This document shows, piece by piece, positions 1-64,000 of a stretch of DNA of 64,000 nucleotides; the stretch's first letter is position 1, and each line of letters starts with the position of its first letter. The notes beneath the pieces are model-generated. The model did no database searches and was not told the origin of the DNA. It saw only the letters and a list, made by a program, of their open reading frames with translations. Origin of the DNA: Asanoa ishikariensis (GTDB lineage: Bacteria > Actinomycetota > Actinomycetes > Mycobacteriales > Micromonosporaceae); contig NZ_FNQB01000001.1 in the NCBI RefSeq assembly GCF_900107455.1, positions 1,922,001 through 1,986,000 on the forward strand. Reading direction: 5' to 3'. Position numbers and translations under genes: made by a program.

Positions 1-1
1 C

Positions 2-304: not shown

Positions 305-321
305 CCACCAAACGGGCGACC

Positions 322-1463: not shown

Positions 1464-1489
1464 ATCAGCTTATGTCCTAGTTTTAGTTG

Positions 1490-3646: not shown

Positions 3647-3648
3647 GG

Positions 3649-3674: not shown

Positions 3675-3698
3675 CACGTCGGACGGGATCATGGGCAC

Positions 3699-47569: not shown

Positions 47570-48922
47570 ATGGACGTCGTCTGGGTGTTGGGTGGGCTGG
47601 CGGCCAACCCCGCGCTCACCCCGGCCGCGCTGGATCGGCTTGTGGCGGTCGGAGGGTGGGCTGTCGACGATGAGCTCGCCGCACGCGCTGACCTGACGGA
47701 CCGCCACGTCGAACAGCTCGCCAGGCACGGCTCCATCTCCGCGCTGGTGACGCTGGTCCGCCGCCGGCGCGTGCCATTGGCGGCAGTCGAGCACCGGCCG
47801 TGGGCGATCGTCGCCTTGCTCGATGACCACGACATCCCCGAGGCATGGCTGTGGCGGGTAGCCGCCGAGCGGGACAGCGAGCTTAGGGCCGAGCTGGCGC
47901 TGGCCGCGGCCTGCCCGCCCGACCTGCTGCGGCTGCTGGCCCAGGACCCGGATCTCGTCAGCTCCGTCGCTGCCTCGGCGGCGCTCACGCCCGCACTCGC
48001 CGAGGAGTTCGCCCGCCATCCGGACGTCGTCGTGCGCCGGGCGGTCGCCGCCAACCGAGACGCGCCCGCCTCGGTGCTCGCGGACCTGGCTGCCGATATC
48101 GGCGACCGCACGGAAGCCGCCTACGAGCTCCAGCTAGCCGTCGCCGGCAACCCCGCTGCCCCGGTAGCCCCCGTGACGGCCCTGGTCGGGCACCCGTCCC
48201 GGCTCGTCCGGCTTGCCCTCGCGGAGCGGTCCGACCTGGATCCGGACAGCTATCGCGCACTGGCGCGCGACGTCGAGGTCCGACGGGAGCTGGCGGCCAA
48301 TCCGGCGGTCGGTGAGCCGTTGATCCGCGAGTTGGCTACCAACGACCTGCGGCGGTGGATCTCGCGCAACCCGGCCCTGCCGCTCGACGTGCTGGCCGAT
48401 CTGGCGGCGGGCATCCGCATCGGCCCTGCCCCGCTGCCGCGCATCGCCTCGGCTACCCAGGTGGAGATCCGCCGGTTCGCGGCTGGACCGCTGCGCGCGC
48501 TGCTGGCCCAGCACCCGGACCTGCCGGCGGACGTCGCCGCCACCATGCCCGACGACCCTGACCCTCGCGTGGCCAGGGCCGTCGCGTCGAATCCGTTGGT
48601 GACGGCCGACCAACTGCGCCGGATGACGGCTCGGCACGGTGGAGCCGTTGCCGCGGGTGTGGTGCGCAACCCGAACTGCCCGCGCGACCTGCTCGACGAC
48701 CTGCTCGGCACGGAGGCCGGTCGCCGGCTGCTGCGCGCGGTCGCCGCGCATCCGAACGCCGCGCCCGCCACCGTCGCGGCGCTGCTCGACCACGACGATC
48801 ACCTGGTCGCGTCGTCGGCTGCCGCGAACCCGGCGCTCCCGGCCGAGGCTGCCGAGCGAATCCTCGCCGTGGTCTCGGAATGTGATCAAGCGGGTAAGTC
48901 TGGGTCTTCGATCTGCTCCTGA
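47570..48922 (+). CDS. Leucine-rich-repeat-variant (LRV-like) helical solenoid protein
   Basis: The 450-residue protein consists of about 24-residue alpha-helical repeats of the type HPDVVVRRAVAANRDAPASVL, NPAVGEPLIRELA, NPALPLDVLADLAAG, HPDLPADVAATMPDDPDPRV, NPNCPRDLLDDLLG and HPNAAPATVAALLDHDD. This matches the LRV/variant leucine-rich-repeat solenoid. No membrane helix or signal peptide. Such scaffolds bind proteins; the partner is unknown. ATG at 47570 is 16 bases after the methyltransferase stop, so the two may be co-transcribed. Confidence 0.85.
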   Translation: MDVVWVLGGLAANPALTPAALDRLVAVGGWAVDDELAARADLTDRHVEQLARHGSISALVTLVRRRRVPLAAVEHRPWAIVALLDDHDIPEAWLWRVAAERDSELRAELALAAACPPDLLRLLAQDPDLVSSVAASAALTPALAEEFARHPDVVVRRAVAANRDAPASVLADLAADIGDRTEAAYELQLAVAGNPAAPVAPVTALVGHPSRLVRLALAERSDLDPDSYRALARDVEVRRELAANPAVGEPLIRELATNDLRRWISRNPALPLDVLADLAAGIRIGPAPLPRIASATQVEIRRFAAGPLRALLAQHPDLPADVAATMPDDPDPRVARAVASNPLVTADQLRRMTARHGGAVAAGVVRNPNCPRDLLDDLLGTEAGRRLLRAVAAHPNAAPATVAALLDHDDHLVASSAAANPALPAEAAERILAVVSECDQAGKSGSSICS

Positions 48923-49447
48923 CCGGCCCTGTCCGTGGGCGCTTCTGTTGATCGAGGAAAATCGGGTATCTGCGTGCGGCTATGCATGATCGGGATCGCG
49001 AGGTATCGTGATCTTCGATCGGTGAATGCGAGCCGGAAATCGACGTGCTGCTGCTTCCACAAACGTCGACAATTTCTTTGCTCTAGTGCAAAGCCGGACT
49101 TTTCTGTTTATCCGGTGTCACTCGTTTTTCGTCCGACCTGACCTGATTAAGTCCGATGTGGATCGCTTCACGCGACGGCAGTCAGATTGCGGCGACAACG
49201 GCTTCCGTGAGTCCGGTGTGGATGATCCCCCTACCGGATCATTCGCGAAGCTCAGCCCCGAAAGGGGATGGCGGCGGGGCGCTCGGAGTGGATCGCCCGC
49301 CGAACGGCCAGTCGAAGCGTCGGGATTCCGACTTTGGTTCGCGGATCATCCCGTTCCGGGTGCAACGCTATTCGCGCCGCGGAATTCACATCCGGAAATG
49401 GCCGCGCTTTTGCGACCGCCGCTGTCGAAAAATTGCTTGGAGTCAGC
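48923..49447 (+). promoter_or_regulatory. 525-base gene-free leader upstream of the exopolysaccharide operon
   Basis: No convincing gene is seen; the DNA is richer in A/T than its neighbours. It contains a hairpin with T-run (49085-49128), two near-identical 14-mers agtccgatgtggat / agtccggtgtggat at 49150 and 49210 (60 bases apart), a shorter tccggtgt at 49111, a ccccGAAAgggg tetraloop hairpin at 49255-49266, and gatgatcc/gatcatcc half-palindromes near 49221 and 49344. It likely holds the promoter and regulatory sites of the operon. Confidence 0.5.
49085..49122 (+). terminator. Two-part hairpin followed by T-run
   Basis: agtg (49085-49088) pairs with cact (49119-49122) and ccgga (49094-49098) with tccgg (49111-49115), followed by cgttttt. 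It could terminate the LRV-gene transcript or act as an attenuator in the leader. Confidence 0.4.
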
Positions 49448-51616
49448 ATGAGTGGGGTTGCGGGAAAATTCATCCATAGTCGGTCGGTGCGCCTGGCGTC
49501 TGCGCTCTGCGTGCCGCTGCTCCTCATCGCGGGTGCGACCCCCGCGAGCGCCGGCACGTCGGTCAAGGCCGACGGAGACCACCAGCACGCGGTCCTCCGC
49601 GGTGCCGTCGCGGCGCCGAAAGCCGTGCCAGGCAAGCCTTTGCCCAAAGTCAGCGGCACGGTGGCGGTCAGGCCCTCGCTGCCCCTCCTCCCGGCGCCCA
49701 GGGGGCTCACGGGCCCGACCCGCACCTCCACCGCCCTCCTCGTCCCGCCGAAGTTGCAGCTACGGGCGCTGATCGTCGGTGTCGATGCCGCCGACTGGGG
49801 CGTGGCCACCTGGAAGCAGACCGTCGACCGGGTCGGTGCCGCGTACGACGTCCTCTATTCGAAGACCGCCCCGCTCACCGCCGCTGACCTCGTGGGGGTT
49901 GACGGAGTCGGCAAATACAACGCGATCCTGTTGACCAGCAGTTCATTGCTCTACGACGCCGGCGGCGGCAGTTTCGTCAGTGGCCTCGACGCGACCGAGT
50001 GGAACACGCTCTGGGCGTACGAGCGCGACTTCGCCGTCCGGCAGGCCGTGCTGTACACGAGCTACGGCGCCTGGCCCGAGGACTACTGCCTCACCGCGTC
50101 GTCCGAGGTCTCGGTCGGTGACACCCCGCTGTCGGCCACCCTTCCCGCCGCCGGGCAGGCGCTGTTCGACGACCTCAAGACCACCGCGGTCGTCAAGATC
50201 CAGCAGTCGTACGTCTACAAGACCCGCATCGCCGCCGGTTGTGCCGCGAGCTCGATCCTGCAGAGCGGCGCCGACATCCTCGGCGTGCAGACCACGTCCA
50301 CCGACGGCCGCGAACGGGCCGCCCTGACGTTCACCTCGAACCAGTACCTGATGCAGAGCAACCTGCTCGCGTACGGCCTGTTCCGCTGGGCCAGCCGCGG
50401 CATGTACCTCGGCGACCAGAAGCACTACCTCCAGGTCGACATCGACGACTGGTTCAACTCGGCGGACCACTACACCCTGCCGAACGGCACCATCGTCACC
50501 GATCCGCCCTACCAGGTCTCGGGTCACGACGCCTACAACCTGCGACAGCGGATGAACAACCTGCGTTCGTGGTTCCCGTTGGCCAACGGCTTCACCTTCA
50601 GCCTGGCCTACAACGGCGCCGACGCGGACCTGACCGCCGTGTCCGGCTGCAGCCCCAACGGCGGCATCGAGACGCTGACCGCGACGAGCCGGTGTCTGCG
50701 CACCTACTTCCGGTGGCTGAACCACACGTACACGCATCCGGAGTTGAACTTCACCACGTACGCCGAGAGCGCGGCCGAGATCACCCAGAACCGCACGCTG
50801 GCCACGACGTTCTCGATGTCGCAGCCCAACACCGTGCTCAAGACCGGTGAATACTCCGGTCTGGGCGTCTACAACCCCGACCCGAACGACGACGTCAACC
50901 CGCCCACCGACTACGGGCTGGGCGCGTCGAACCTCAACTTCCTCCAAGCCGCACGTGACAACGGCGTCCAGTACGTGCACGGCAACATGTCGTTCGCGAG
51001 CCACGTGCCGTCGTGCTTCAACTGCGGCATCGACCACCCGCTCGAGCCGAGCATCATGATCGTGCCGGACTGGCCGACGAACATCGCGTACCACACGACC
51101 ACGCCGGATGAGCAGACCCACTTCTACAACGGGTTCTACGGCCCCAACGGTCGGTTCCCGTTCTTCCCGGTCGACCAGACGTACGCGCAGATGAAGGACT
51201 ACGAGACCAACGTGGCCCTGAGTCACGTGGCCACCGGCTCGATCTACACGCACACGTTCCACATCGCCAACGTCAAGGACTACGGCGGCGGCGAGACGCT
51301 GGTCACCGACTGGGCGCACATGGTGATGCAGAAGTACTCGGCCCTCTACAAGGTGCCGCTGCTCTGCCTCGACTGGGCGACCCTGGCCACCAACGTCAAG
51401 AACCGCACGCGGCACATGGCGGTGAAGGCCGCCGGCGCCAAAGCTGTCTACGACCCGTCGACCGGCACCATCGAGGTCAGCTCGCCGACGGCCGGCCCGC
51501 TGATCGTCACTGGTGCCAGCGCCGCCGGCTACACCACCTACGGTGCCGAGCGCACCTCGACCCTGACCATGGCCGCAGGCGGCACGACGACCGTCATCGC
51601 GAGTCCTCGGTCATGA
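49448..51616 (+). CDS. Secreted Agd3-like polysaccharide deacetylase (CE18-type)
   Basis: A 722-residue exported protein with a signal peptide (VRLASALCVPLLLIAGATPASA). The N-terminal 280 residues have no clear catalytic motif and may correspond to the carbohydrate-binding part of Agd3. The C-terminal part has deacetylase metal-site motifs: VDIDDWFN (Asp at 331-334) and NHTYTHPEL with His426 and His430. Fungal Agd3 removes acetyl groups from GalNAc in galactosaminogalactan. By analogy this protein would deacetylate the polymer made by the operon outside the membrane. ATG at 49448 directly precedes the signal peptide; the longer open frame upstream is not coding-like. It overlaps the next gene by ATGA. 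Confidence 0.85.
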   Translation: MSGVAGKFIHSRSVRLASALCVPLLLIAGATPASAGTSVKADGDHQHAVLRGAVAAPKAVPGKPLPKVSGTVAVRPSLPLLPAPRGLTGPTRTSTALLVPPKLQLRALIVGVDAADWGVATWKQTVDRVGAAYDVLYSKTAPLTAADLVGVDGVGKYNAILLTSSSLLYDAGGGSFVSGLDATEWNTLWAYERDFAVRQAVLYTSYGAWPEDYCLTASSEVSVGDTPLSATLPAAGQALFDDLKTTAVVKIQQSYVYKTRIAAGCAASSILQSGADILGVQTTSTDGRERAALTFTSNQYLMQSNLLAYGLFRWASRGMYLGDQKHYLQVDIDDWFNSADHYTLPNGTIVTDPPYQVSGHDAYNLRQRMNNLRSWFPLANGFTFSLAYNGADADLTAVSGCSPNGGIETLTATSRCLRTYFRWLNHTYTHPELNFTTYAESAAEITQNRTLATTFSMSQPNTVLKTGEYSGLGVYNPDPNDDVNPPTDYGLGASNLNFLQAARDNGVQYVHGNMSFASHVPSCFNCGIDHPLEPSIMIVPDWPTNIAYHTTTPDEQTHFYNGFYGPNGRFPFFPVDQTYAQMKDYETNVALSHVATGSIYTHTFHIANVKDYGGGETLVTDWAHMVMQKYSALYKVPLLCLDWATLATNVKNRTRHMAVKAAGAKAVYDPSTGTIEVSSPTAGPLIVTGASAAGYTTYGAERTSTLTMAAGGTTTVIASPRS

Positions 51617-53244
51617 AAGTAGCGCTGGTGTCGGAGGGCACCTACCCGTACGCCATGGGCGGTGTCAGTGTCTGGTGTGACCAGCTGATGCGCGGGCTCT
51701 CCGACTACCGGTGGGAGATGGTGGCACTCACCGTCGACAACTCGGAACGCCCCGTGTGGCGGCTGCCCGAGAACCTCGACCGGGTGACCGCGATTCCGTT
51801 GTGGGGCCCCGGCGGCGACCGCCGCCGGGGCGTCCCCCCGAAGGAGTTCACCGAGCCGTACCAGGAGTTCCTGCTCAGCCTGGTCACGCCGTTGGACCCT
51901 CGGCCGGAGCGCGCCGTCCGCGAGAACGTGCGGTTCATCGCCGCACTGCGCGGGCTGCACGAGTACGCGGCCTCCGGCGGCGACCTGTCGGCGGCGATGA
52001 TGTCCAACCGCGCGCTGGCGATGATGATGGACGCCTGGCACACGATCCAGGCGGACGGGCTGACCCTGGCCGACGCCACGCAGGGCGCCTGGTCGCTGGA
52101 GCACATGCTGCGGCCGTTGTCGGTGCCCGCCGTGGAGGCCGACGTCGTGCACGCCTCGATGAACGGCCTGTCGATGCTGGTCGGCCTGGTCGCCAAGTGG
52201 ACGCACGGCACCCCGCTGCTGCTCTCCGAGCACGGCATCTACCTGCGCGAGCGCTACATCTCATACCTCGACGAGGACACGCCGCACCCGGTGAAGGTGC
52301 TGATCCTCAACTTCTTCCGGTGCCTCGCCGGCGGCGCCTACCTGGCCTGTGACGCGCTGGCACCGCACTCCGGCTACAACCGGCGCTGGCAGCTACGCAA
52401 CGGCGCCGAGCCGGATCGCATGTGGACGATGTACAACGGCGTCGCCCCCGAGTCCTTCCCGCCCGCGCTGGAGGAGCCGCCGGAGCCGACGATCGTGTTC
52501 GCCGGCCGGGTCGACCCGCTCAAGGACCTGCACACGCTGATCCGGGCGTTCGCCATCGTCCGGGAGAAGCTGCCGGACGCACGGCTGCGGATGTTCGGTG
52601 GCACCCCGGCCGGCAACGAGGTCTACCACGACAGTTGCGTGGCCCTCATCGAGGAGCTCGGCCTGACCGGCGCCGCCGTGCTGGAAGGCCGCATCGAGGA
52701 CATGGTCGAGGCCTACCACAGCGGCAGCATCGTGGCGCTGACCAGCATCTCGGAGGGTTTCCCGTACACGGTGGTCGAGGCGATGGCCTGCGGGCGCACC
52801 GTCGTCTGCACCAACGTCGGCGGAGTCTCGGAGGCCGTCGGCGACGCCGGGTTCGTGGTCGCACCGCGCGACTCGGCCGCCGTGGCCGAAGCCTGCGTGC
52901 GGCTGCTCGACGACGCCGAGCTACGCCACGAGCTGGCCGCGAAGGCGCGCAACCGGGTGCTCGAGCGGTTCACGCTGGCCCAGTCGCTCGACGCCTACCG
53001 CAACCTCTACGAGCGGCTGTCCAACCCCGAGCTCACCGCCGAGCCGGCGCCTCCCGCGCCCGACATGGTGTACGTGGGCCGCGTGGCCATCTCGCGCTAC
53101 GTCGGCCGGGTCGCCCGCGAGATCACCGCCGAGCCGGCGGTGCCGGAAGCGCCGGCCGAGCCGCACGTCGGCCGCGCCACGGTCAACCGCTACGTCGGCC
53201 GGGTCGCACAGTCCGACGTCGAGTCCGCGGAGCAGGCCGCATGA
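51613..53244 (+). CDS. pelF: PelF-type glycosyltransferase (GT4) with repeated C-terminal tail
   Basis: A cytoplasmic retaining GT4 enzyme of 543 residues, longer than usual PelF. N-terminal [23 protein letters not shown] is the PelF/DUF3492 signature. C-terminal donor-site motifs are [15 protein letters not shown] and the E-x7-E pair Glu381/Glu389 in [15 protein letters not shown], followed by [13 protein letters not shown]. PelF polymerises UDP-GalNAc-derived units of Pel. Residues after about 485 carry two copies of a (Y/H)VGR(V/A)...RYVGRVA motif, an extension I do not know from other PelF proteins. It overlaps both neighbours by four bases. Confidence 0.9.
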
Positions 53245-54752
53245 CCCTCACGTCGGGGCAGCCACGCGCGCCCATCATGGCCGCGGCCCGCGAGGTGGCG
53301 GCCGACGCCACCATCGCGATCACGGCCGGCATGGTGGTCACGCCACCGGTGGTCGAGGGCGCGAGGTTCTCCGGCGACCCGCTGGACGCGCTCGTCGACC
53401 GGGTCCGGGAGTCGGCCGGCCGGGCGGTCGACGCCCTCCAGGTGGCCGCGCTGCTCGAGGCCGACGGCGTCACCGACCGGGTGGCCCGCGCCGTGTACGG
53501 CTTCACCGACGTGTTCTACCTCGCCGAAGACGTGTTCCGCCGGGCCGGGGGCGGCGTGCGCCGCCTGCGGCCCGTGGCCCCGCCGCTGCGCGACCCCGCG
53601 CGGGCCGCCCGGGAGATCGCGCACGGCGCGCTCTACCTGCTGCCGGGTGCGCTGTTCCCGGCCGTCGCGGCGGTCATCTCGCCCCGGCCGCTGCTGGTCG
53701 CCCTGCTGGTGGCCGGTGTGCTGGGCTGGGTCTGGGCGGCCGGCGCGAGCTGGCTCGCCTTCCAATGCCTCAACGTCGACGACGAGCTGACCGCCGGCCG
53801 CGTGCTGGCCTGGTCGACGGCGGCCGGGATGGTGGTGGCCGTCCTCGCCGGCGTCGGAGTGACGATGGCGGTCGGCGGCGGCGTCACCGCCGCGGCCCTG
53901 GTGCCGGGCGTCATGGCGTACCAGATGGCCAGCACCGCACTTGTCTTCTACCGCCTGGAGCTGTGGCTCGCGCTGCTGACGGCGCCCGCCGCGGTGCTCG
54001 GCGTCGGCTATCTCCTGGGGGAGATCCAGCTCGTCTGGGCCCTGGGCACCGTGACGGCGTGCGTCGCCGCCGCCCTCGTCGCCGGTGTCTGGCGGGCGCT
54101 GTGGGCCGGCAAGGGACGCACCGTCTCGGCGATCGGCGGACCGCGCGGGCTGTTCCGCGGCCGGATCGGGCCGCTGGCCTGGGTCCTGCTCTACAGCGCG
54201 CTCGCCGCCACGTTCCTGCTACACGCGCAGGTTCCCTACCTGCTGTCGAATGTGGACGTAGTCCTGGTCGTCCTCGCACTGATCGTGACCATGGGTGTGG
54301 TGGAGTGGCGGTCCCGGCGCTTCACGGAAGAGGCGCGACGCCTACTTACCCGGGTCCGCTACCCGAAGGAGTTCCAGCGTCGGGTCTGGGTGCTGCTCGT
54401 CGGCAACCTGGTCGCGTGCTGGCTGACGACGGCCGTGTTCGCGGCGGCCATCTGCTGGGGGCTGTGGTCGCTGGGCCGGCTCAGCCCCGACGCTCTGGCC
54501 ATGGCCGGCGCGCAGGTCGCGATGGCGGGCGCCTACTTGACGGCGTTCGTGCTCGCCGGCCACCTGCGCTACGGCTGGCTCTGCGGCTGCCTCACGGTGG
54601 CCATCGCGGCGAGCCTCGGCACGCCGCACCTGATCGGGGCGTCACCCGACGTACCCGCGACCGTCTTCTACCTGGGCAGTGCCGTGCTGCTGCAGATCCT
54701 CCTGCTGGTGGGTCTTTCTCCGGTGCTGAGCCAGGTCTCGCGCTACCGCTGA
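53241..54752 (+). CDS. Polytopic membrane protein in the PelG position (putative polysaccharide exporter)
   Basis: About 503 residues with an N-terminal cytoplasmic stretch of roughly 120 residues and about 12 hydrophobic segments (e.g. [49 protein letters not shown]). The helix count equals PelG, a Wzx/MATE-like partner of PelF, but I see no specific PelG motif, so homology is open. By position between PelF and sugar-nucleotide genes it probably moves the nascent polymer across the membrane. ATG at 53241 overlaps the PelF stop. Confidence 0.72.
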
Positions 54753-54769
54753 CGAACTGGGGGTTCAAC

Positions 54770-55498
54770 ATGCATGCGGTGATCCTCGCCGGTGGAAAGG
54801 GTGTGCGGCTGAGGCCGTACACGACGGCGTTGCCGAAGCCCTTGGTCCCGATCGGCGAACGCTACGCGATCCTGGAGATCATCCTGCAACAACTCTCCGA
54901 CCAGGGCTTCCGGTCGGTGACCATCGCGATCAACCACCTGGGCCACCTGATCCGGGCGTTCGTCGCCGACGGACGCCGATGGGGCCTGCGCGTGGACTAC
55001 GTCGAGGAGACCGTTCCACTGTCGACGGTCGGGCCGCTGTTCGGGCTGACCGACCGCCTGCCGGAACGGTTCCTGGTGATGAACGGCGACGTGCTCACCG
55101 ACTTGCGCTACAGCGACCTGCTGGAGCACCACGCCCTGTCGGGTGCGCCGCTGACCGTGGCGACGTTCACCCGCACCGTGAAGATCGACTTCGGGGTGCT
55201 GGGGCTGGAGAGCGGCCGGATCGTCGGGTTCACCGAGAAGCCGAGCTACCACTACCCCGTGAGCATGGGCGTCTACGGCATGTCCCGCGAGACGCTCGCT
55301 CCCTACCCGGCGGGGCTCTCGTTCGGCTTCGACGAGCTCATCCTCGACCTGGTCGGCCAGGGCTCCTATCCGTCCACGTACGCGTTCGACGGATTCTGGC
55401 TCGACATCGGCCGGCCCGAGGACTACGACGAGGCCAACCGCAACTTCAACGAGCTCGAGCCGATACTGCTGCCGGCGCGGGCCGGGGTGGCCGCATGA
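54770..55498 (+). CDS. Sugar-phosphate nucleotidyltransferase
   Basis: A 242-residue NDP-sugar pyrophosphorylase: N-terminal [28 protein letters not shown] with the catalytic GGKG..R..P..KP signature, MNGDVLTDL (metal Asp), and [19 protein letters not shown] near the end. It would activate a hexose-1-phosphate for the polymer. The short length (no left-handed helix domain) means no acetyltransferase activity. ATG 54770; overlaps the next gene by ATGA. Confidence 0.9.
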
Positions 55499-56388
55499 AG
55501 GTCCTGCTCTTCGGCGCGTCGGGCTTCCTCGGCGGCCGGGTCCGCGAGGCCTTGGCGGCCGCACCGAGGGTGACCTCGGTCGACTGCCCGGGCCGCGCAC
55601 GCTGCGACCTGGTCGCCTCGGGTGTCGACGAGCTGACCGACCTGGTGCGGGCGGCGGCGCCGGACGCGGTGGTGAACTGCACCGGCCGGCTCAGCGGCAC
55701 CGGTTACGACCTCGCGCTGGCCAACACGCTGGTCACGGCGAAACTGGTCGAGGCCGTCGCCACGGCGGCGCCCGGCGCGCGGCTGGTCCGGCTCGGGTCG
55801 GCCGCCGAATACGGCGTCGTGCCCGACGGCGTCGCGGTCAGCGAGACGGACCCGTGCGAACCCGTCAGCGAGTACGGCGTGAGCCACCTGGCCGCGACCC
55901 GGCTGCTCGACCTGGCCACCGCCGCGGGCCGGGTCGACGGCGTGACGATGCGGGTGTTCAACCCGGTCGGCGCCGGCATGCACCCGGACAACCTGCTCGG
56001 CCGGGCGGCCGCCCTGATCCAGGGTGCCGCGCGCGACGACGCCGACCACGTGACGCTGGCGGCGCTCGGTGCGTACCGCGACTTCGTCGACGTCCGCGAC
56101 GCCGCGGCGGCGGTGACGGCCGCGGTGACCGTGACCGACCCGGCGGCCCGGGTGTTCAACGTCGCCAGCGGGATGGCGGTGACCAGCCGGGAGGCCGTGG
56201 AGCTGCTCGCGAAGGTGTCCGGCTGGTCGGGTGAGATCCGCGAACGCGGCCTCGGCCCGGCCCGCTCGGCCGCCGTCAACTGGATGCTCGGCGACATCTC
56301 GCTGACGCGGGCCGTCCTCGACTGGCAACCGGTGCACTCCCTCGGCGACTCGCTGTGGGACGTCTGGACCGGCGCCGGCGGTAACTGA
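55495..56388 (+). CDS. NAD-dependent epimerase-like protein with altered YxxxK
   Basis: A 297-residue extended SDR-fold protein: [13 protein letters not shown] cofactor loop, [21 protein letters not shown]. The usual catalytic YxxxK is YGVSH here, with Tyr127 kept and His131 in place of Lys. Epimerases of this kind convert UDP-Glc(NAc) to UDP-Gal(NAc), but loss of Lys makes normal catalysis doubtful. It may be a reductase, a binding subunit, or use a different mechanism. Overlaps the nucleotidyltransferase by four bases. Confidence 0.8.
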
Positions 56389-56391
56389 CCG

Positions 56392-57336
56392 ATGGGGGTT
56401 CGTCGCATGCTGGCCTTGCTCGGGACGGCCGTGGTGGTCACCGCGGTCGTGCCGGCGTGCTCCGGCGACCCCGCACCACCATCGGCGTGCTCGCACCCCG
56501 ACACCCAGGTCGTGTCGGCGGGTCGCCTCGACGGTGCTCCTTGGACTTCGGTCAAGACCTGGCTCTACCAGCTCCAGGGGTACGAGGGAGGCGGGCTGGA
56601 CGCGATCGCCGGTGCGCGGGCGGACCTCGCGGTCATCGACCTGGCGCGCGACGCCAAGTCGGACTTCTTCCGGAAGGAAGAGGTCGAGGCCGTCCGCGCC
56701 TCGGGCAAGCGGGTGCTGGCCTACTTCGAGATCGGCAGCATCGAGGACTTCCGGCCCGAGCACCGCGCCGTCGTCGACAGTGGCCTGGTGCTCAACCGCT
56801 GGGACGACTGGCCGGAGGAGCACTTCGTGTGCTTCTGGGAAGAGCCCTGGTGGGAGATCGCCATCCGGCCCCGGATCGACCAGGCGCTGCGGGCCGGCTT
56901 CGACGGGATGTACCTCGACACGCCCCTCGCGTACGAGGAGATCGACCTTGATCTGGTTCCCGGAGCCACCCGGGACAGCCTGGCCGCCGGGATGGCCGCG
57001 TTGATCGTGCGCATCAGCGCGTACGCCAAAGAGCGCTCGCCCGGTTTTGGGGTGTTCCCGCAGAACTCACCGGAACTGCGCCACCAGCGCGGCTACACCG
57101 CCGCGATCGACGGGATCGGCATGGAGGAGCTGTTCTTCCTCGCGACCGACAAGCCGTGCACCGAGAGCTGGTGCGCGGAGAACCTCGCCGAGACGCGCGC
57201 CCTGCGCGCCGCCGGCAAGCTCGTGCTCGCCGTCGACTACGCCGTCGACCGCGACAACATCCGCACCGCGCGCGACAGGTACGCCACCGAGGGATTCGCC
57301 GGCTGCGTGACCGTCCGTGAGCTCGACCGCCCCTAG
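56392..57336 (+). CDS. Lipoprotein GH114-type endo-alpha-1,4-polygalactosaminidase (Ega3/PelA-like)
   Basis: A 314-residue precursor. Residues 1-23 are a lipoprotein signal (MGVRRMLALLGTAVVVTAVV, then PAC with lipid-modified Cys23). The rest is a TIM-barrel GH114 domain: DLAVIDLARDAKSDFF (Asp candidate), RVLAYFEIGSIEDFRPE, GFDGMYLDTPLAYEE. GH114 members such as Ega3 and the PelA N-terminal domain cut alpha-1,4-galactosamine polymers. At the membrane surface it could trim, release or clear the operon's product. ATG 56392; ATG 56407 is alternative. Confidence 0.88.
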   Translation: MGVRRMLALLGTAVVVTAVVPACSGDPAPPSACSHPDTQVVSAGRLDGAPWTSVKTWLYQLQGYEGGGLDAIAGARADLAVIDLARDAKSDFFRKEEVEAVRASGKRVLAYFEIGSIEDFRPEHRAVVDSGLVLNRWDDWPEEHFVCFWEEPWWEIAIRPRIDQALRAGFDGMYLDTPLAYEEIDLDLVPGATRDSLAAGMAALIVRISAYAKERSPGFGVFPQNSPELRHQRGYTAAIDGIGMEELFFLATDKPCTESWCAENLAETRALRAAGKLVLAVDYAVDRDNIRTARDRYATEGFAGCVTVRELDRP

Positions 57337-57363
57337 TAGCTCGTTCGAAGGAGTCGCTCCGTT

Positions 57364-58680
57364 ATGCCCACGTCTGTTGGTGTCGTCGGGATGGGCTATG
57401 TCGGCCTCACCCTGACCGCCGCGCTCGCCCGCAAGGGCTTCGTCGTCCACGGGGTCGACGTCCAGCCCACCGTTATCGACCAGCTCAACCACGGCAAGCC
57501 GCACATCTTCGAACCCGGCGTGGCCGAGGCTTTCCGCGAGCACGTGGGCAGCTCCATCTTCGTCGCCGCCGACCTGCCGAAGTCCGGTGTGGACGTCGCC
57601 GTCATCTGCGTCTCGACGCCGGTCGACGAGCACACGTACCGGCCGAACCTCACCAACCTGGCCGCCTCGGCCCGGTTCGTCGCCGAGCAGTGCGCGCCGG
57701 GCACGCTGGTGGTCGTCCGCAGCACGGTGCCGGTCGGCACCACCCGGCGGGTCGTGCTGCCGGCCCTGCGCGAGGCCTGGGGCGACAACGTGCGCCTGGT
57801 GATGGCGCCCGAGCGCACGATCCAGGGTCAGGCGCTGCGCGAGCTAGTCGAGCTGCCGCAGGTGGTCGGCGGGCTCGACGATGCCAGCCGCGACGCGGGC
57901 CTGGCGTTCTTCGGTGGGCTGGCCCACGAGCTGGTGCCGGTGTCCAACCTGGAGACCGCCGAGATGGTGAAGCTGTCCAACAACTGCCACACCGACCTCA
58001 TCTACTCGTACGGCAACGAGATCGCGTTGATCTCCGAGCGGCACGGCCTCGACCCGCTCGAGGTGATCCGCGCGGCCAACCTGAACTACCCGCGGCCCGA
58101 CCTCGCCAAGCCGGGTTACGTCGGCGGCGGCTGCCTGTCCAAGGACCCGTACATCATGATCGACTCGGCCGGCGACCGCGAGCCGTTCCTGGTCGGCCGC
58201 GCCCGCGCGCTCAACGAGTTCCTGCCGACCCACGTCGCGACGACCGTCGTCGACCGCATCCGCGCGGTCCGCGGCTCGACGCAGGGCGCACGGCTGTCCG
58301 TGCTCGGCTGGGCCTACAAGGGCTGGCCGCCCACCGACGACATGCGCGGCACCCCGATCGCCACGATGATGCCGGTCTTCGCCGAGGCCGGGCTGACCGT
58401 GCTCGGCCACGACCCGATGGTCACCGACGACGTCATCCGGCAGTACGGCGGCCTGCCGGTCAGCCTCGACAAGGCGTTCAGCGAGTCGGACGCGGTGCTG
58501 GTCATCAACGACCACCCGGACTACCGGGCGCTGAACATCGACTCGGTGCTGGGCGCCAACCGCCCGGCGATCATCTACGACTCGTGGCGGATCCTCGACG
58601 AATCAGCGATCGCGGCGGCCGGGGTGCAATACGGGGGCATCGGCTACGTCGGCCGCGGCGGTGCGGGGGTGCCGGCGTGA
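57364..58680 (+). CDS. UDP-N-acetyl-mannosamine/hexosamine dehydrogenase-type nucleotide-sugar dehydrogenase
   Basis: A 438-residue UDP-sugar 6-dehydrogenase: N-terminal VGMGYVGLTLTAALARKG, APERTIQGQALRELVELPQ, KLSNNCHTDLIYSYGNE with the catalytic Lys/Asn set, and the nucleophile Cys257 in GGGCLSKDP. It resembles WecC/WbpO-type enzymes that make uronic acids from UDP-HexNAc by two NAD-dependent oxidations. This suggests the polymer contains an acidic residue such as GalNAcA or ManNAcA. It is preceded by AAGGAG and overlaps the next gene by four bases (GTGA). Confidence 0.9.
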   Translation: MPTSVGVVGMGYVGLTLTAALARKGFVVHGVDVQPTVIDQLNHGKPHIFEPGVAEAFREHVGSSIFVAADLPKSGVDVAVICVSTPVDEHTYRPNLTNLAASARFVAEQCAPGTLVVVRSTVPVGTTRRVVLPALREAWGDNVRLVMAPERTIQGQALRELVELPQVVGGLDDASRDAGLAFFGGLAHELVPVSNLETAEMVKLSNNCHTDLIYSYGNEIALISERHGLDPLEVIRAANLNYPRPDLAKPGYVGGGCLSKDPYIMIDSAGDREPFLVGRARALNEFLPTHVATTVVDRIRAVRGSTQGARLSVLGWAYKGWPPTDDMRGTPIATMMPVFAEAGLTVLGHDPMVTDDVIRQYGGLPVSLDKAFSESDAVLVINDHPDYRALNIDSVLGANRPAIIYDSWRILDESAIAAAGVQYGGIGYVGRGGAGVPA

Positions 58681-59642
58681 ACGTGCTGCTGCTCGGCGGC
58701 GCGGGCTTCATCGGCCTGCACCTGGCCCGGCGGTTGCTCGCCGACGGCCACTCCGTGACGATCGTCGACGACTTCTCCCGGGGTCGCGACGACAAGGACC
58801 TGGACTCTCTCCGTGCCCACGCTGGGGCTTCCATCCTGTCGGCGGACCTGACGTCTCCGGCCACGTGGGATTCGCTGCAGCACGGCTGGGACCAGATCTA
58901 TGTGCTGGCCGCCGTGGTCGGCGTCCGCAACGTCTCGAACGACCCGTGGCGCACCGTCCGGGTCAACACCCTGGTGGCCATGCACGCGCTGGATTGGCTG
59001 GCACCCGGCGACAAGGTCTTCTTCTCGTCGACCAGCGAGGTGTACGCGGGCGGGGTCGACGCCGGCGTCGTGGCGGTGCCGACGGCGGAGGACGCCCCGG
59101 TCATGGTGCGCGACGTCTCTGAGCCACGGTTCGCGTACGCGATCAGCAAGCTCCTCGGCGAAGCCGGCTTCCTGCATGCTTCCCAGGCGCGCGGCTTCTC
59201 GGCGGTGGTGGGTCGCTTCCACAACGTCTATGGGCCGCGGATGGGCGCCGACCACGTCATCCCCGAGATGGCGATGCGCTCGCTGGCGGGGGAGGACCCG
59301 TTCCGGGTGTGGGGTGCGGACCAGTACCGGGCCTTCTGCCATGTCGACGACGCGGTCGAGGCGATGCTCCGGCTGATGGCTTCTCCTGAGGCGTTTGGGC
59401 AGGTGGTGCACATCGGCGACGACAGCCAGGAGACCAACATCGCCGACCTGGCGAAGCTGGTACTGCGCCTCACCGATCGCGACGCTGTTCTGGATCCCGC
59501 ACCGGCCCCGGCGGGCTCGGTCGCGCGACGCTGCCCTGATCTGACTCTGTTGCGGTCTCTCACCGGCTACCAGCCGGCGGTCGACCTGGAGGAAGGTGTC
59601 CGCCGCACAATCGCGTGGTACCGGGACTGGCAGCCGCGATGA
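58677..59642 (+). CDS. NAD-dependent epimerase/dehydratase (UDP-sugar)
   Basis: A 321-residue extended SDR: LLLGGAGFIGLHLARRL cofactor loop, FFSSTSEVYAGG with the catalytic Ser/Thr, YAISK with Tyr154/Lys158, and VVGRFHNVYGPRMG. It resembles UDP-glucose 4-epimerases and UDP-glucuronate decarboxylases, so it may make the UDP-Gal(NAc) or a processed uronic-acid donor. Unlike the other epimerase in the operon its catalytic triad is intact. GTG 58677. Confidence 0.9.
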   Translation: MNVLLLGGAGFIGLHLARRLLADGHSVTIVDDFSRGRDDKDLDSLRAHAGASILSADLTSPATWDSLQHGWDQIYVLAAVVGVRNVSNDPWRTVRVNTLVAMHALDWLAPGDKVFFSSTSEVYAGGVDAGVVAVPTAEDAPVMVRDVSEPRFAYAISKLLGEAGFLHASQARGFSAVVGRFHNVYGPRMGADHVIPEMAMRSLAGEDPFRVWGADQYRAFCHVDDAVEAMLRLMASPEAFGQVVHIGDDSQETNIADLAKLVLRLTDRDAVLDPAPAPAGSVARRCPDLTLLRSLTGYQPAVDLEEGVRRTIAWYRDWQPR

Positions 59643-60337
59643 TCCCCCACGACGAGGCGATCGGCTTCTACTACGGCGCCGGCCGCCTGGACGCGCTCCG
59701 CCGCTACCCGCGGGTGGTCCTGCAGTCCGAGTTCTACAGCACGGCGGAGCTCACTGTTCTGCGTGACGGTGGCACGGAGCCGATGGGCTACCTGTCGCTC
59801 TCGGAGGACCAGGGCCCGCCGGCAGCGTGGCAGCGCGAGGAACGCAACCCGGACTGGGGCGGGGCTTTCGTCCACGTCGGACACCCAGGCTGGGTTGAGC
59901 ACATCGTCGGCCAGGCCAAGGCGGAGATGACGGCCGGGTTCACCGGGCTGTTCCTCGACACACTCAACGTCGAGCTGACGTATCCGGAGGACCTGCCCCA
60001 TCTGCTGGCCCTGATCGCCGCGATTCGTGAGGAGGCCAAGCCGTCGTACATGCTCGCGAACCGCGGCTTCGGCCTGCTGCCGCGCATGACGGAGTTCGTC
60101 GACGGCATCCTGTTCGAGTCGTTCTCGGCCCGCTGGACGGACAACGGCTACGACGCCTGGCCGCCGGACGTGCTCGAGTACAACGCCCAGATCGCGGAGC
60201 AACTCCTGCAGTACGACGTCGACCTGTACGCGCTCGACTACGCGGACACGGAGGGCCTCACGGAGTTCGCCCACCGGCGCGCGGGCCAGTTCGGCCTGTC
60301 CTGCTTCGTCAGCGACCGCGCCCTGTCCCGCATTTGA
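59639..60337 (+). CDS. Second GH114-like hydrolase, no signal peptide
   Basis: A 232-residue protein with the short GH114/TM1410-like TIM-barrel pattern: VVLQSEFYSTAEL, EPMGYLSLSED, AGFTGLFLDTLNVELTYP, YMLANRGFGLLPRM, FVDGILFESFSARW. It keeps the acidic residues of the family but has no signal peptide or lipobox, so it seems cytoplasmic. That is unusual for a hydrolase of a secreted polymer; it may act on cytoplasmic oligomers or proof-read. Overlaps the epimerase by ATGA; last gene of the operon. Confidence 0.82.
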   Translation: MIPHDEAIGFYYGAGRLDALRRYPRVVLQSEFYSTAELTVLRDGGTEPMGYLSLSEDQGPPAAWQREERNPDWGGAFVHVGHPGWVEHIVGQAKAEMTAGFTGLFLDTLNVELTYPEDLPHLLALIAAIREEAKPSYMLANRGFGLLPRMTEFVDGILFESFSARWTDNGYDAWPPDVLEYNAQIAEQLLQYDVDLYALDYADTEGLTEFAHRRAGQFGLSCFVSDRALSRI

Positions 60338-60344
60338 CGGACCG

Positions 60345-60389
60345 GAGATAGCTCAGCAATCATTGCCTCAATGTTTGCTGAGCTATCTC
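60345..60389. promoter_or_regulatory. Long perfect hairpin/palindrome over the ArsR-remnant start
   Basis: Fifteen-base perfect arms (60345-60359, 60375-60389; gagatagctcagcaa) enclose a 5-bp inner stem (cattg/caatg) with a 3-base loop and one T/T mismatch. It begins seven bases after the operon's stop and covers the ATG (60372) of the ArsR remnant. It could be the operon terminator, the old ArsR operator, or both. Confidence 0.7.
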
Positions 60390-60561
60390 TGCGGGCCCGC
60401 ACCCATGCGGCGCTGGGTGACCCGGCACGGCTCGCGATGGTCGACAGGCTTCGCATCGCCGGGAGAGTTGGCGCAGTCGCTCGGCCTGCCGACAAACCTG
60501 GGTGGCACACCACGTCCGCGTTCTCGAGGACGCCGGCCTGGTCCTGAAGACGCGGTCGGAG
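60372..60561 (+). pseudogene. ArsR-family regulator, broken by two frameshifts
   Basis: The parts of an ArsR winged helix are spread over three frames: LRARTHAALGDPARLAMVDRL in the frame starting at 60372, then SPGELAQSLGLPTN one frame over (near 60449), then AHHVRVLEDAGLVLKTRSEG in the third (from 60502). A normal gene would read through all three. The end is cut by the direct-repeat sequence starting near 60557. ArsR proteins are small metal- or signal-responsive repressors; this copy cannot work. Confidence 0.8.
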
Positions 60562-60728
60562 GGGCAGGTCCATCCCTGCGCGGGGTTCTCCGGTCGGGTC
60601 AAGGCTCGCCGAAGGCGCACACGAACCGGCTCGGCCTGGGCGCGGCCGGAGGTTCCCGAGTCGGTCCTGGCGCACGACCGAAGAGATCCCACGAGAACGC
60701 TGATCTCCGATGAGGGCCGGGGTCCGGA
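60557..60728 (+). repeat. Imperfect direct repeat, copy A
   Basis: About 172 bases matching copy B (61461-61637) with conserved blocks: ggttctccggtcgggtcaag, gctcgcc(g/a)aaggcg, gagatccc, gaacgctgatctccga and gagggccggggtccgg. It truncates the ArsR remnant. Confidence 0.65.
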
Positions 60729-60763
60729 GCGGCGCCCCGGTGCTCCGCTGACAAACTCGGCGC

Positions 60764-61057
60764 GTGTCTCCTGATCAGACGTCGTCACCGGTCCCGACGG
60801 TATGGATCTTCCATGGGGAAGGCGCGCCCTTCGCCGCGGGCGTCTTCGTGTCCAGAGCCGAGGGTGTCGCCTGGGCACAGCGACACGGCGTGACTGGACA
60901 ACTGACCGAGTACCTCGTCGGAGACGGCTGTTATGACGTGGCCGTCCGGACGGCCACGTTCAGACCGACCAAGCCGCATCACGGATCGCCGGGCCACATC
61001 GCGGGATTCTCGTCAGGCGGGGAGCACGTCCACATCGTCGATGGATTGCCAGACTGA
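60764..61057 (+). CDS. DUF7710-like small protein
   Basis: A 97-residue protein beginning VWIFHGEGAPFAAGVFVSRAEG after a short linker, then WAQRHGVTGQLTEYLVGDGCYDVAV, FRPTKPHHGSPGHIAGFSSGGEHVHIVDG. The pattern is that of a widespread small domain annotated DUF7710 whose function is unknown; paired tests link it loosely to island DNA. Start GTG 60764 is used. It stands between the two direct repeats. Confidence 0.75.
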   Translation: MSPDQTSSPVPTVWIFHGEGAPFAAGVFVSRAEGVAWAQRHGVTGQLTEYLVGDGCYDVAVRTATFRPTKPHHGSPGHIAGFSSGGEHVHIVDGLPD

Positions 61058-61218
61058 GGCGAGCCCATCCCCGAGCCGGCCGGTGCCCGCCCGGCAGACC
61101 CGCCGCCCCAAACGGCCGCTGGAGCGACACGCGCTCCATCCCTGGCGACTTAGCTCTCGCCGAGAACAGCGATCACCGGAACGTGGGGTGTCCGGGGCTC
61201 GGCCCCGGAGCCAGAATG

Positions 61219-61258
61219 GCTCAAATCGCGCATGAGCCTGCTCATGAGCGATTTGAGC
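61219..61258. repeat. Hairpin next to the tRNA fragment
   Basis: gctcaaatcgcgcatgag (61219-61236) pairs with ctcatgagcgatttgagc (61241-61258) with one mismatch over 18 positions and a 4-base loop. It abuts the 3' end of the tRNA remnant and could be its terminator or a recombination-site arm. Confidence 0.65.
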
Positions 61259-61297
61259 GGGCGACGGGAATCGAACCCGCACCGTCAGTTTGGAAGA
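61256..61297 (-). other. 3' half of tRNA-Gly(UCC): likely attachment-site remnant
   Basis: On the minus strand the sequence gives anticodon loop CTTCCAA (anticodon UCC), a T-arm GCGGG-TTCGATT-CCCGT and acceptor strand CGCCCGCT. The anticodon stem fails to close beyond two pairs on its 5' side, and no D-arm or acceptor 5' strand follows. So only the part from the anticodon loop to the 3' end is present. This is the usual shape of the duplicated att segment left by an integrase that uses a tRNA gene. Confidence 0.8.
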
Positions 61298-61304
61298 CGT
61301 CAAC

Positions 61305-61349
61305 CGGCCAGGTCGCTGAGCGCGAAAGTGCAGCTCAGCGACCTGGCCG
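61305..61349. repeat. 17-bp perfect hairpin flanking the tRNA fragment
   Basis: cggccaggtcgctgagc (61305-61321) and its exact reverse complement (61333-61349) with an 11-base loop. It lies just outside the tRNA homology on the island side. From 61350 to 61460 I see no gene. Confidence 0.75.
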
Positions 61350-61460
61350 TCATGTCCGTGGGGTACCCCAGATGACCCCTTGCGGCACCGTCTACTGGCA
61401 CGTGGATGGCACGGCGATCTTGGTTCTTACCTACCCCTCATCCCGGCGGCTGGATCTCCT

Positions 61461-61637
61461 CGGTCGGGCAGGTTCAACCCTGCGCAGGGTTCTCCGGTCG
61501 GGTCAAGGCTCGCCAAAGGCGACCGCGAAGCGGCTTGGCCTTGGCACGGCCAGAGGTTCCTGTGCAGCCGTCTCGGTGCGCGGCTGAGGAGATCCCTTCC
61601 GGAACGCTGATCTCCGAGGAGGGCCGGGGTCCGGGGC
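61461..61637 (+). repeat. Imperfect direct repeat, copy B
   Basis: About 177 bases, same orientation as copy A (60557-60728). The two bracket the DUF7710 gene and the tRNA fragment. Differences are spread over its length, so duplication is not recent. Confidence 0.65.
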
Positions 61638-61647
61638 ATAGCCCGAG

Positions 61648-61973
61648 TCACTTCTGTGGGTCTGACGCCTCGGTTGGCCCGGCCGTCTGTAGGTCGCCGT
61701 AGTCGCGTGCGAGGTCCAACAGACGTAGGAGGAGCGGTGGGGAATCCGCGGCTCACCGTGTGCCAGGAAGATGGCTTCGCTCGCGGCGGCGGGGGTGAAC
61801 GGACCGTCGGGCGTTAGATCCGGAATGCGGATCTCGATGTAGTCGTTCCGGCCCGGATTCTGTTCGGTCTGGTACAGCTCGTAGCACCAGGCGTCATGGT
61901 CGCCATCATAGAAGTTGTTGACCTCGAAGACCTTGCCGCCGTAGGTCCACTGATGCTGTGACGCGTACTCCAC
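61648..61973 (-). pseudogene. Hypothetical gene with a frameshift near 61740
   Basis: The start MEYASQHQWTYGGKVFEVNN and the middle YIEIRIPDLTPDG look coding. After GEPRIP the frame becomes low-complexity, while the next frame continues PLLLRLLDLARDYGDLQ to a TGA at 61648. One base change in a G-run near 61737-61745 (about residue 80) explains this. It could be real decay or a sequencing error. No family recognised. Confidence 0.6.
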
Positions 61974-62216
61974 GCATGACAGGCTGCCAGAGCCAGAGAG
62001 CCGGCCGGCGCGCGCGGCGGGCCGGAGGTCCAGAGCGCAGTGCCGGGCCGGCGCGCCGCGCTCGCGCGGCGCCTTGATTCATTAGAGGTGGAATCGGCAG
62101 ACGCATCCGCTGGCGGCCATCTCGGTCCGCCTAGTCGCTACTTTCGGGCAGGTACTGTCGACCGAAACCCAGGTAGTATCCATGGCCTCGGCGAGTACGA
62201 CATATGGGGCTACTGG

Positions 62217-62417
62217 ATGACTGAGCTGGGACAGCGCGCCGTGCAGGTCGTCGCGGAGTTGACGGCCGCGTTGGCACGAATCGACAACGATCACCAAGAC
62301 GAAGCCGAATCCGAGCCGACCACTATAGACGTCGAGCTAATCCGGGTACTTGCGTCCGAGCCGTTCGAACTGCCTGAAGCGGCGGAGAAAGTTGTGGCTC
62401 GTGCACATCAGAATTGA
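62217..62417 (+). CDS. Small protein gene upstream of the ATPase
   Basis: A 66-residue acidic, helical product: MTELGQRAVQVVAELTAALA, then a Glu/Asp-rich linker and VLASEPFELPEAAEKVVARA. The frame is open further upstream, but no coding signal precedes the ATG at 62217, and a TAGTAT-like -10 box sits at 62174. It overlaps the ATPase start by 17 bases, so the two are likely translated together. Function unknown; possibly a partner subunit. Confidence 0.55.
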   Translation: MTELGQRAVQVVAELTAALARIDNDHQDEAESEPTTIDVELIRVLASEPFELPEAAEKVVARAHQN

Positions 62418-64000
62418 AGCAGAGACGGGCCACGGTCTCCGGATCATAGAGGAGATCCCTGACTTTCCGATTTCCAAGATCGAAGGGTATAATGGGATCG
62501 GCAAAACCAATGCCATAAAGCTGCTTCGCCTTTGCACAGGAGATCAACCGTTCGAGAACGATCTTTCTGCGTGGCGGACCTTCCGCCGGCACCTCGCGGC
62601 TGCGCGTGTGCAGGTGACGGGTCTCTACGGCGGTCGAACGATTGACATCAACCTAGACCCCGAACGCTGGCCCACAAAACCAGAACCCCTGGGCGACCTG
62701 TTGGGATCCGTCAGGATAGACGGAACGCTGGCGTTGCCAGCTGACATTCCGGACGTTCTGCGAGTGTTCCACATCCTGACGACCGAGACTCCACTCGAAA
62801 TCTTAGCTAAAAGGGCACTGAGAGCGGAGCGCGATCTAAGATCTTGGCTCGAATATGAGGCAGAACCGCGCCAGAATGACCTGGACAAGATAATTGGCGC
62901 GGTCCAGGTAAGAATCAGCGATTGCCTTCCCGCTCAGTTACCGCAGGAGTTGCACGCTGCCGAGTCGGCTCGCAGGCTTTTGAGTGGTGCAACATCGGAA
63001 CTTGACGAGGCTAAGAGACTAGCGGGCCTGTTAGAGAAGGCTGTTGAGGTCGCAGATCGCTTGGACCAGGTCCGCGGTCGAGGACCAGAGCTCGACGCAA
63101 AACTTGGCGAGATACGGCGTCGGCTTGCGGATTTAGACGATCGAAAGCGAACTCTCGATGAGCAAATCGAAGGCGCAAGCGCCTCTCAGACGGCCAACCA
63201 AGCAGCTGAGCATGAGTTTGACTTAGCGCAAAAACACCTTGTGCGACAGGACAAATCTTTCCGACTCGCGAAGACATCCCTCGAGAAGGTCGCGGCCGCA
63301 GCAGGTGTTGCACCCGAGAGGGCACCCGTTTCTAGTCGCATCGCCGACTTGAGCGGGCAGCTTGCGGAGATGGTTGACCTTCTTCCTCAAGTCAATGCAA
63401 CACCAATGCTCATTTCGGTCTTGACTGATCTTGCAGATCGACTTGAGGATGGAGAACGCCACGACCTCGCAGGAAGCGTTCTGATCGAGGCGAGCGACGC
63501 ATTTCCTGGATTGACGGTTTCGCAACTGCGTGACTTGTGCCAAATTCAAGCTGAGAAGCTGTCCCGACGGACGCCGTCTGCCCAAGCGGAGAAGCTCGAG
63601 TCGCAGATAGACAGTGTGCGCAATCAGCTCGACGCTCTTTCGCAGATGGCTGAGAAGCTCGATGAACTTGACATCGCCGAAGGTAACCTTCACCGCGCAG
63701 AGGAGCGGCTGCGCAACGCCGTCGAAGGTTTGCCAGAGCAAGCAGCGCGTACCGTCGAAGAACTCATGGCCAACCGTAATACCCTCGATGATGAGAGCCG
63801 ATCGTTGCAAGGTGACGAGGCGCGCTTCAGCCAGGCGCGTGACCTATTGGGCGGAGGCCTCGACGAAGCGGCACTAGCCGCAGAGCTGCACAGTCTATGC
63901 CAAGAGGCGCGGGTCGACCCTGGACGCGTTCGCGGCCGGCGGGAGCGTCATCTCGCCGAGATCGACGACCTGACTCGCCGGCAGATCGCAATACAGCAGC
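62401..64000 (+). CDS. SMC/RecN-like coiled-coil ATPase, N-terminal part (runs off the right edge)
   Basis: From GTG 62401 (or TTG 62392) the frame stays open for 533 codons to the end of the window. Residues 1-130 are an ABC/SMC-type ATPase head with Walker A GYNGIGKT at 29-36. From about residue 190 the sequence is long heptad-like, Glu/Lys/Arg/Leu-rich coiled coil (e.g. LDEAKRLAGLLEKAVEVADRL). The second head half with the signature and Walker B must lie beyond the edge. Codon use has more A/T third bases than the rest of the window, suggesting horizontal origin. Proteins of this build act in DNA repair or anti-phage defence; which one cannot be told. Confidence 0.75.
   Translation, partial: MHIRIEAETGHGLRIIEEIPDFPISKIEGYNGIGKTNAIKLLRLCTGDQPFENDLSAWRTFRRHLAAARVQVTGLYGGRTIDINLDPERWPTKPEPLGDLLGSVRIDGTLALPADIPDVLRVFHILTTETPLEILAKRALRAERDLRSWLEYEAEPRQNDLDKIIGAVQVRISDCLPAQLPQELHAAESARRLLSGATSELDEAKRLAGLLEKAVEVADRLDQVRGRGPELDAKLGEIRRRLADLDDRKRTLDEQIEGASASQTANQAAEHEFDLAQKHLVRQDKSFRLAKTSLEKVAAAAGVAPERAPVSSRIADLSGQLAEMVDLLPQVNATPMLISVLTDLADRLEDGERHDLAGSVLIEASDAFPGLTVSQLRDLCQIQAEKLSRRTPSAQAEKLESQIDSVRNQLDALSQMAEKLDELDIAEGNLHRAEERLRNAVEGLPEQAARTVEELMANRNTLDDESRSLQGDEARFSQARDLLGGGLDEAALAAELHSLCQEARVDPGRVRGRRERHLAEIDDLTRRQIAIQQ

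Follow-up and report, generated by a model that had tools for sequence, protein, structure and literature searches.

The question raised by a nine-gene operon of Asanoa ishikariensis is whether it directs the synthesis and export of a galactosamine-type exopolysaccharide along a modified Pel/galactosaminogalactan (GAG) route that has no PelD in the locus. The operon is located at positions 49448–60337 of the window, the whole 64,000-nucleotide stretch of DNA analysed, which lies within contig C2 of the 9.09-Mb genome. All nine genes, designated g1 to g9, are on the + strand. Adjacent genes overlap by 4 bp at five of the eight junctions (g1/g2, g2/g3, g4/g5, g7/g8 and g8/g9) and the remaining three gaps are 17 bp, 3 bp and 27 bp, thus it is likely that the operon forms a single transcript with coupled translation. 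The nine coupled genes reported by a first-pass annotation, made from the sequence alone, were confirmed at these coordinates, and the locus is real, conserved and had been well annotated in outline. A promoter and terminator scan of the locus found no excess over shuffled sequence. Sequence comparisons and predicted folds make it probable that such a polymer is made and exported by this route.

The product of g2 (51613–53244; 543 amino acids (aa)), a predicted cytoplasmic GT4 glycosyltransferase, matched the NCBIfam PelF equivalog NF038011 over residues 3–466 with 168.9 bits (cut-off 100) and Pfam DUF3492 with 161.7 bits, and the earlier assignment to PelF was borne out by this profile search. 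An EX7E motif was read directly within an 11-residue stretch of the sequence. The C-terminal tail (53056–53241 in the window) includes a repeated YVGRVA-like motif, and the tails of other relatives are unrelated and variable. As this repeat was present only in the window and in locus L013 among the tails compared, it was rejected as a general PelF docking motif.

The first gene, g1 (49448–51616; 722 aa), encodes an Agd3-like protein with a hydrophobic, signal-like N-terminus, predicted to be secreted and made up of a CBM87 domain, a CE18-type domain and a C-terminal part. Two Pfam domains exceeded their cut-off of 27.6, CBM87_Agd3 with 40.3 bits and Agd3_CE with 37.2, and a 20-sequence profile of g1 matched the Agd3 structure 6nwz at 1.8e-42 across the carbohydrate-binding and catalytic domains. 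The Asp-Asp pair of motif CM1 (D333/D334), the HxxxH of CM2 (H426/H430) and the His of CM4 (H605) were kept in all 20 aligned g1 sequences. The nearest named relative, in Asanoa hainanensis, shares 85% identity; an Agd3-like gene was found in three of six genomes of the genus (G000, G001 and G003), and a match in 12 among 61 relatives.

Two hydrolases are also encoded. Residues 42–313 of the g6 product (56392–57336; 314 aa) matched the GH191 galactosaminidase 9ep5 with an E value of 9.6e-76, compared with 4.5e-6 for Ega3, and a lipobox-like VPAC at the N-terminus predicts that this GH191-like endo-galactosaminidase is a lipoprotein. It also matched the broad Pfam model GH114 (101.2 bits, cut-off 27), and scored 136.3 bits with TIGR01370, under the cut-off of 181.25. 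For g9 (59639–60337; 232 aa), a 12-sequence profile matched the hydrolase domain of PelA (GH166; structure 5tcb) at 1.1e-29, and Foldseek aligned the predicted fold to the same structure (TM 0.82, E 5.5e-18). Residue E160 of g9 is equivalent to E218 of PelA, as seen from the E218A chain in the same output, and neither D107 nor E160 is replaced in any of the 30 family loci of the profile alignment (the best 30 of 34, with the window's own locus among them). The g9 sequence of the window alone matched no Pfam family, and GH114 was found at E ≤1 in 5 of 12 aligned g9 members. The identification of g9 as a GH114/Ega3 enzyme was rejected, as Ega3 ranked far below PelA and GH191 by fold and was absent from the profile matches. 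Hence the two hydrolases proposed in the first-pass annotation are present and of galactosaminidase type, and Pfam GH114 does match g6, but g6 is GH191-like and g9 PelA/GH166-like rather than both being GH114. The start of the last gene was also corrected, to 59639, and its product has no signal peptide.

The association of these genes was examined in related loci and genomes. PelF-like and g3-like genes occurred together in 38 of 42 related loci (L013–L034 and L061–L080; 41 distinct loci, as L062 duplicates L013), and the four without g3 (L026, L030, L031 and L033) are on short contigs ending at that point; L071–L080 were collected via g3 matches, hence g3 is present there by construction. 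A strong g3 match (≥333 bits) was found in 35 of 200 sampled family genomes and a strong g9 match (≥331 bits) in 34, all of them among the 35. In 33 of these 34 the two genes are on the same contig and at most 9.2 kb apart, and in the remaining one (G446) they are on two contigs. The boundary between strong and weak matches was chosen after inspection (333 then 271 bits for g3; 331.9 then 39.2 bits for g9), the best 8 (g3 and g7) or 14 (g9) candidates per genome were scored, and the g3, g9 and g7 counts, made with the same settings, are taken to cover the same 200 genomes, with g3 and g9 paired by hand. Weaker g3 matches were found in 17 more genomes (52 in total) and weak-only g9 matches in 21 more (55 in total), several of the latter pointing to g6-like genes. 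A g8 match was present in 30 of 30 g9 loci. As g6 was found in only 9 of 14 distinct loci holding a g9 of the window's group, and is missing from L022–L025 and L063, g9 is more firmly part of the core than g6.

Sugar-nucleotide enzymes are encoded by g4, g5, g7 and g8. The g4 product (54770–55498; 242 aa) is a sugar-1-phosphate nucleotidyltransferase (Pfam NTP_transferase, 108.2 bits) with a UTP-glucose-1-phosphate uridylyltransferase as the best solved relative (8x7s, 95.5 bits); no NCBIfam model reached its cut-off, so there is no clear equivalog. The g7 product (57364–58680; 438 aa) is a UDP-sugar 6-dehydrogenase with Pfam UDPG_MGDP_dh domains that matched TIGR03026 with 291.3 bits (cut-off 189.8), and its nearest solved relatives are the UDP-ManNAcA dehydrogenase 4r16 (195 bits) and then CalS8 (165 bits), which we take to be a UDP-glucose dehydrogenase. 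The g8 product (58677–59642; 321 aa), a short-chain dehydrogenase/reductase (SDR) with an intact YxxxK, scored about 119 bits with the UDP-glucuronate decarboxylases 4lk3 and 2b69, and 91 bits with 4-epimerases, and its STSEVY, YxxxK and RAF positions line up with those of the decarboxylases. A role as a 4-epimerase was therefore not supported, and identity as a decarboxylase is likewise unproven, as another SDR, 8vr2, scored 111.9 bits against 119.8 for the top decarboxylase. As the solved structures closest to g8 are UDP-glucuronate decarboxylases, the g7-g8 pair may yield a pentose as readily as the uronic acid at which the dehydrogenase had been taken to hint.

At an E value of ≤1e-80, g7 was found in 57 of the 200 family genomes, including all 35 with a strong g3. 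The other 22 (e.g. G377, G368 and G015) have g7 relatives of 66–74% identity in 19 cases and 42–46% in three, which indicates that the dehydrogenase also belongs to another locus. The g7 matches in G399, G479, G395 and G360 each contain one in-frame TGA, and that in G035 is partial.

In the proposed route, PelF would polymerise a UDP-N-acetylhexosamine, most likely UDP-N-acetylgalactosamine (UDP-GalNAc), in the cytoplasm, and the g3 product would move the chain through the membrane in PelG's stead, with PelF perhaps docked on the helical stretch at its N-terminus. The g1 product would be secreted, hold the chain with its CBM87 domain and probably deacetylate it, and g6 would act as a membrane-anchored lipoprotein that trims the polymer outside the cell. 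Inside the cell, g9 would cut stalled chains and those building up in the cytoplasm. A further activated sugar, either a pentose or a uronic acid, may be provided by g4, g7 and g8 to decorate the chain or to serve as a co-monomer.

Several observations weigh against this proposal. In one genome (G508) the exporter is present with no strong g9, and at L019, a locus similar in other respects, the 3 kb remaining past g8 contain no g9 match. The g3 product (53241–54752; 503 aa), a membrane protein that is probably the polymer exporter, has the predicted 12-helix fold of the MOP flippases (MATE/Wzx/MurJ superfamily) and a conserved N-terminal helical stretch at approximately residues 47–101. However, the PelG model PF16933 was matched at E ≤1 by none of 19 aligned family members, the window included, and when its profile was compared with that of three PelG sequences the probability was <1%. 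The g3 profile could be linked to three intermediates at 98.3%, but these to PelG at only 0.3%, and one distant relative (L039) scored 20.7 bits with PelG, under the cut-off of 29. The identification of g3 as PelG was therefore rejected, and because this one remaining bridge is sub-threshold the protein is described by its PelG position and MOP fold; the position and the 12 helices seen earlier stand. The absence of PelG after re-ranking with VIA-align carries no meaning, as that program re-ranks Foldseek's own list.

The sugar-nucleotide enzymes and g1 present further difficulties of this kind. The g5 product (55495–56388; 297 aa) is an epimerase-like SDR (Pfam Epimerase, 100 bits) in which GxxGxxG, Ser and Tyr are kept, but the catalytic Lys is replaced by His (YxxxH) in the window and in 27 altogether of the 30 family loci aligned (30 of the 35 strong-g3 loci). 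Of the other three, one has Arg and two have Lys, with the Tyr missing from one of these two; three more distant relatives retain Lys. Without YxxxK, g5 was not accepted as a UDP-Glc/GlcNAc 4-epimerase (GalE/Uge3), and as it is the likeliest stand-in for GalE, UDP-GalNAc must come from elsewhere or be made by other chemistry. Of the two epimerases claimed previously, both are thus SDRs, one with YxxxH and one nearest to decarboxylases, while the nucleotidyltransferase and dehydrogenase were found as described. It is only an idea, by analogy, that g5 could play a part parallel to the epimerase-like domain, judged likely inactive, that PelD bears in some Gram-positive pel loci in the account given in PMC7112168. 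Nothing equivalent to the g7-g8 pair appears in Pel or GAG synthesis as described in the papers cited here. Finally, the CM3 Arg of g1 (R613 in Agd3) is Asp in the window, and Asp or Cys in all 14 members of its group (the window and its 13 nearest relatives, L013–L025, at ≥50% identity; set by identity and not by tree), whereas the six remaining aligned relatives, from Chloroflexi and Streptomyces, all keep Arg. Motifs CM1–CM4 are all four reported to be essential in vitro in the Agd3 work, where CM3 is said to be kept in most bacterial homologues (PMC7229062). Because that statement covers most and not all homologues, CM3 was treated as needed for activity and not as defining the family; g1 stands as a homologue of the secreted Agd3/CE18-like deacetylase, but its deacetylase activity is not to be assumed.

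A different product has also to be considered, namely a heteropolysaccharide of uronic acid or pentose with little or no galactosamine, which would borrow PelF and Agd3-like parts and in which g3 would be a Wzx-like flippase of lipid-linked units. The predicted fold of g3 fits WzxE about as well as MATE, the dehydrogenase accompanies the exporter in 35 of 35 genomes, and the CM3 Arg of g1 is lost, all of which speak for this alternative. However, no Wzy-type polymerase or initiating phosphoglycosyltransferase was found among the nine genes with Pfam and NCBIfam, g6 and g9 are both closest to enzymes acting on alpha-galactosaminide polymers, and two loci (L021 and L025, Nonomuraea) lack the dehydrogenase and both SDR genes yet keep g1-g2-g3-g9; L025 retains just these four, and L021 has g4 and g6 in addition. 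This alternative is considered unlikely. Slightly less so, though still doubtful, is that g1 in the window's group is not an active deacetylase but a protein that binds or anchors the polymer, which would remain acetylated. The uniform loss of the Arg within the group, set against its retention in more distant sequences, speaks for this reading, but an inactive enzyme would not usually retain the Asp pair of CM1, the two His of CM2 and the His of CM4 without exception.

The location of g9 is open to a further alternative, that it is exported non-classically, or acts outside after lysis, as an ordinary biofilm-trimming hydrolase, and the related PelAH of B. cereus does have a signal sequence and act on biofilm according to PMC7112168. 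No signal-like N-terminus was found in g9 of the window or of 11 orthologues (among them L021, with an overlong start), nor was a signal-like stretch found near the start of the barrel in 29 of 30 family loci (L112 being the one left out); in L098 just 13 open codons precede the barrel. In three of the 30 loci (L106, L107 and L109), g8 and g9 are fused in a single open reading frame in which both domains are near full length, and SDR sugar-nucleotide enzymes are of cytosolic type. Because of this fusion and the lack of a signal-like N-terminus g9 is predicted to be cytoplasmic, and apparently stays inside the cell. With a separate hydrolase, g6, in most of the g9 loci of the window's group, an extracellular role for g9 appears quite improbable. 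The galactosamine-type polymer made by a Pel/GAG variant remains the preferred reading. A more specific form of it, less likely than not, is that of a distinct PelD-free Pel-like machine. Its core would be PelF, an exporter of a new MOP family distinguished by an N-terminal helical stretch, an Agd3-like protein whose active site has been rebuilt, and a PelA-type hydrolase inside the cell. This hydrolase would police the nascent chain, cutting unexported polymer in place of control by cyclic di-GMP (c-di-GMP).

As regards regulation, no Pfam PelD, GGDEF or GAF domain was found among the nine operon genes and three upstream neighbours, and the earlier remark that no PelD is visible holds for the locus. 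The PelD model PF16963 had no match across the G000 genome, but 14 control genomes were equally silent. Every operon gene was assigned and none is left over for PelE (no PelE profile was run). Rfam gave nothing at gathering score for 48500–64000, and no c-di-GMP riboswitch was recognised.

The operon belongs to a published class. For 30 of the 35 bacterial species in their tree, Bamford et al. 2020 (PMC7229062) place agd3 within a carbohydrate operon or close to one. In the actinobacterial operons of that account, agd3 is accompanied by genes for a glycosyltransferase of the cytoplasm and for a membrane protein with multiple spans, together with GH114 or spherulin-4 genes. The present operon shares with them the Agd3 homologue, the glycosyltransferase, the membrane protein, GH114-type genes and its actinobacterial host, and differs from the operons as described in the text in its signal-less PelA-type hydrolase, dehydrogenase/decarboxylase-like pair and YxxxH SDR; that source touches on loss of CM3 solely in its remark on most bacterial homologues. 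The Gram-positive merger proposed earlier is thus not new, and because the same source supports a bacterial origin, by transfer, for the fungal cluster, the label "fungal-type" pointed in the wrong direction. In mostly non-subscription literature, no further title suggests an actinomycete agd3 or pelF operon. Apparently new here are the linkage of g9 to the exporter (34 within 35 of 200), the loss of the CM3 Arg (14/14), the YxxxH SDR (27/30) and the constant dehydrogenase (35/35).

Other systems resemble the operon in part. The pelDEA(DA)FG operon of B. cereus likewise has PelF, a membrane protein after PelF, and separate deacetylase and hydrolase proteins in the descriptions of PMC7112168 and PMC13254593. 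Unlike it, the operon in the window has no PelD in the locus, an exporter that fails the PelG family and a hydrolase without a signal sequence (PMC7112168), and its deacetylase homologue is Agd3/CE18-like, whereas PelADA is given as CE26 (PMC13254593). The Aspergillus GAG cluster (Agd3, Ega3, Sph3, Uge3 and Gtb3) also combines an Agd3-like deacetylase with galactosaminidase-type hydrolases, but as described in PMC7229062 relies on the integral membrane glycosyltransferase Gtb3 where the window has PelF and a MOP protein. Its hydrolases are GH114 and GH135, and those of the window GH191- and GH166-like. The g6 product resembles the GH191 alpha-galactosaminidase 9ep5 in sequence and differs from the enzyme described in PMC12054363 in being a predicted lipoprotein encoded within a synthesis operon.

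If the preferred reading is correct, many actinobacteria of the family (35 of 200 sampled genomes with the exporter) would produce a cationic, Pel/GAG-like matrix from a locus in which the customary c-di-GMP receptor is missing, and this would bear on their aggregation and attachment. The smallest form, g1-g2-g3-g9 in L025, would provide a four-gene set in which to study passage of a polymer across one membrane and the purpose of an intracellular hydrolase.

Other arrangements of the parts were also seen. In two actinobacterial loci (L036, positions 1–4347, and likewise L037), a PelF-like gene, a PelG (470.6 and 459 bits, above cut-off) and an Agd3-like protein stand in a row. In L071 (3656–11585), from a genome of the same taxonomic class as that of the window, genes for an alpha/beta hydrolase, DUF3152, a PelF-like protein, a g3-like protein, an epimerase-like protein and Spherulin4 were found with no Agd3-like match, and L079 has similar N-termini and gene order. 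No g1 match at E 1e-5 was found in 7 of the 42 loci (L071, L072, L075 and L077–L080; Pfam was run on L071 only). The PelF-PelG-Agd3 loci, together with the Spherulin4 locus that lacks Agd3, suggest that parts have been exchanged between arrangements.

Downstream of the operon, a short stretch at 61260–61300 resembles by eye the 3' part of a tRNA gene on the minus strand, and ARAGORN and Rfam report none there. Upstream, the operon is adjoined by a leucine-rich-repeat-variant gene (47570–48922) that is present in two of five genus-mates, both with an Agd3-like gene (G001 and G003), and absent from the three without one. The copy in G001 contains one in-frame TAG.

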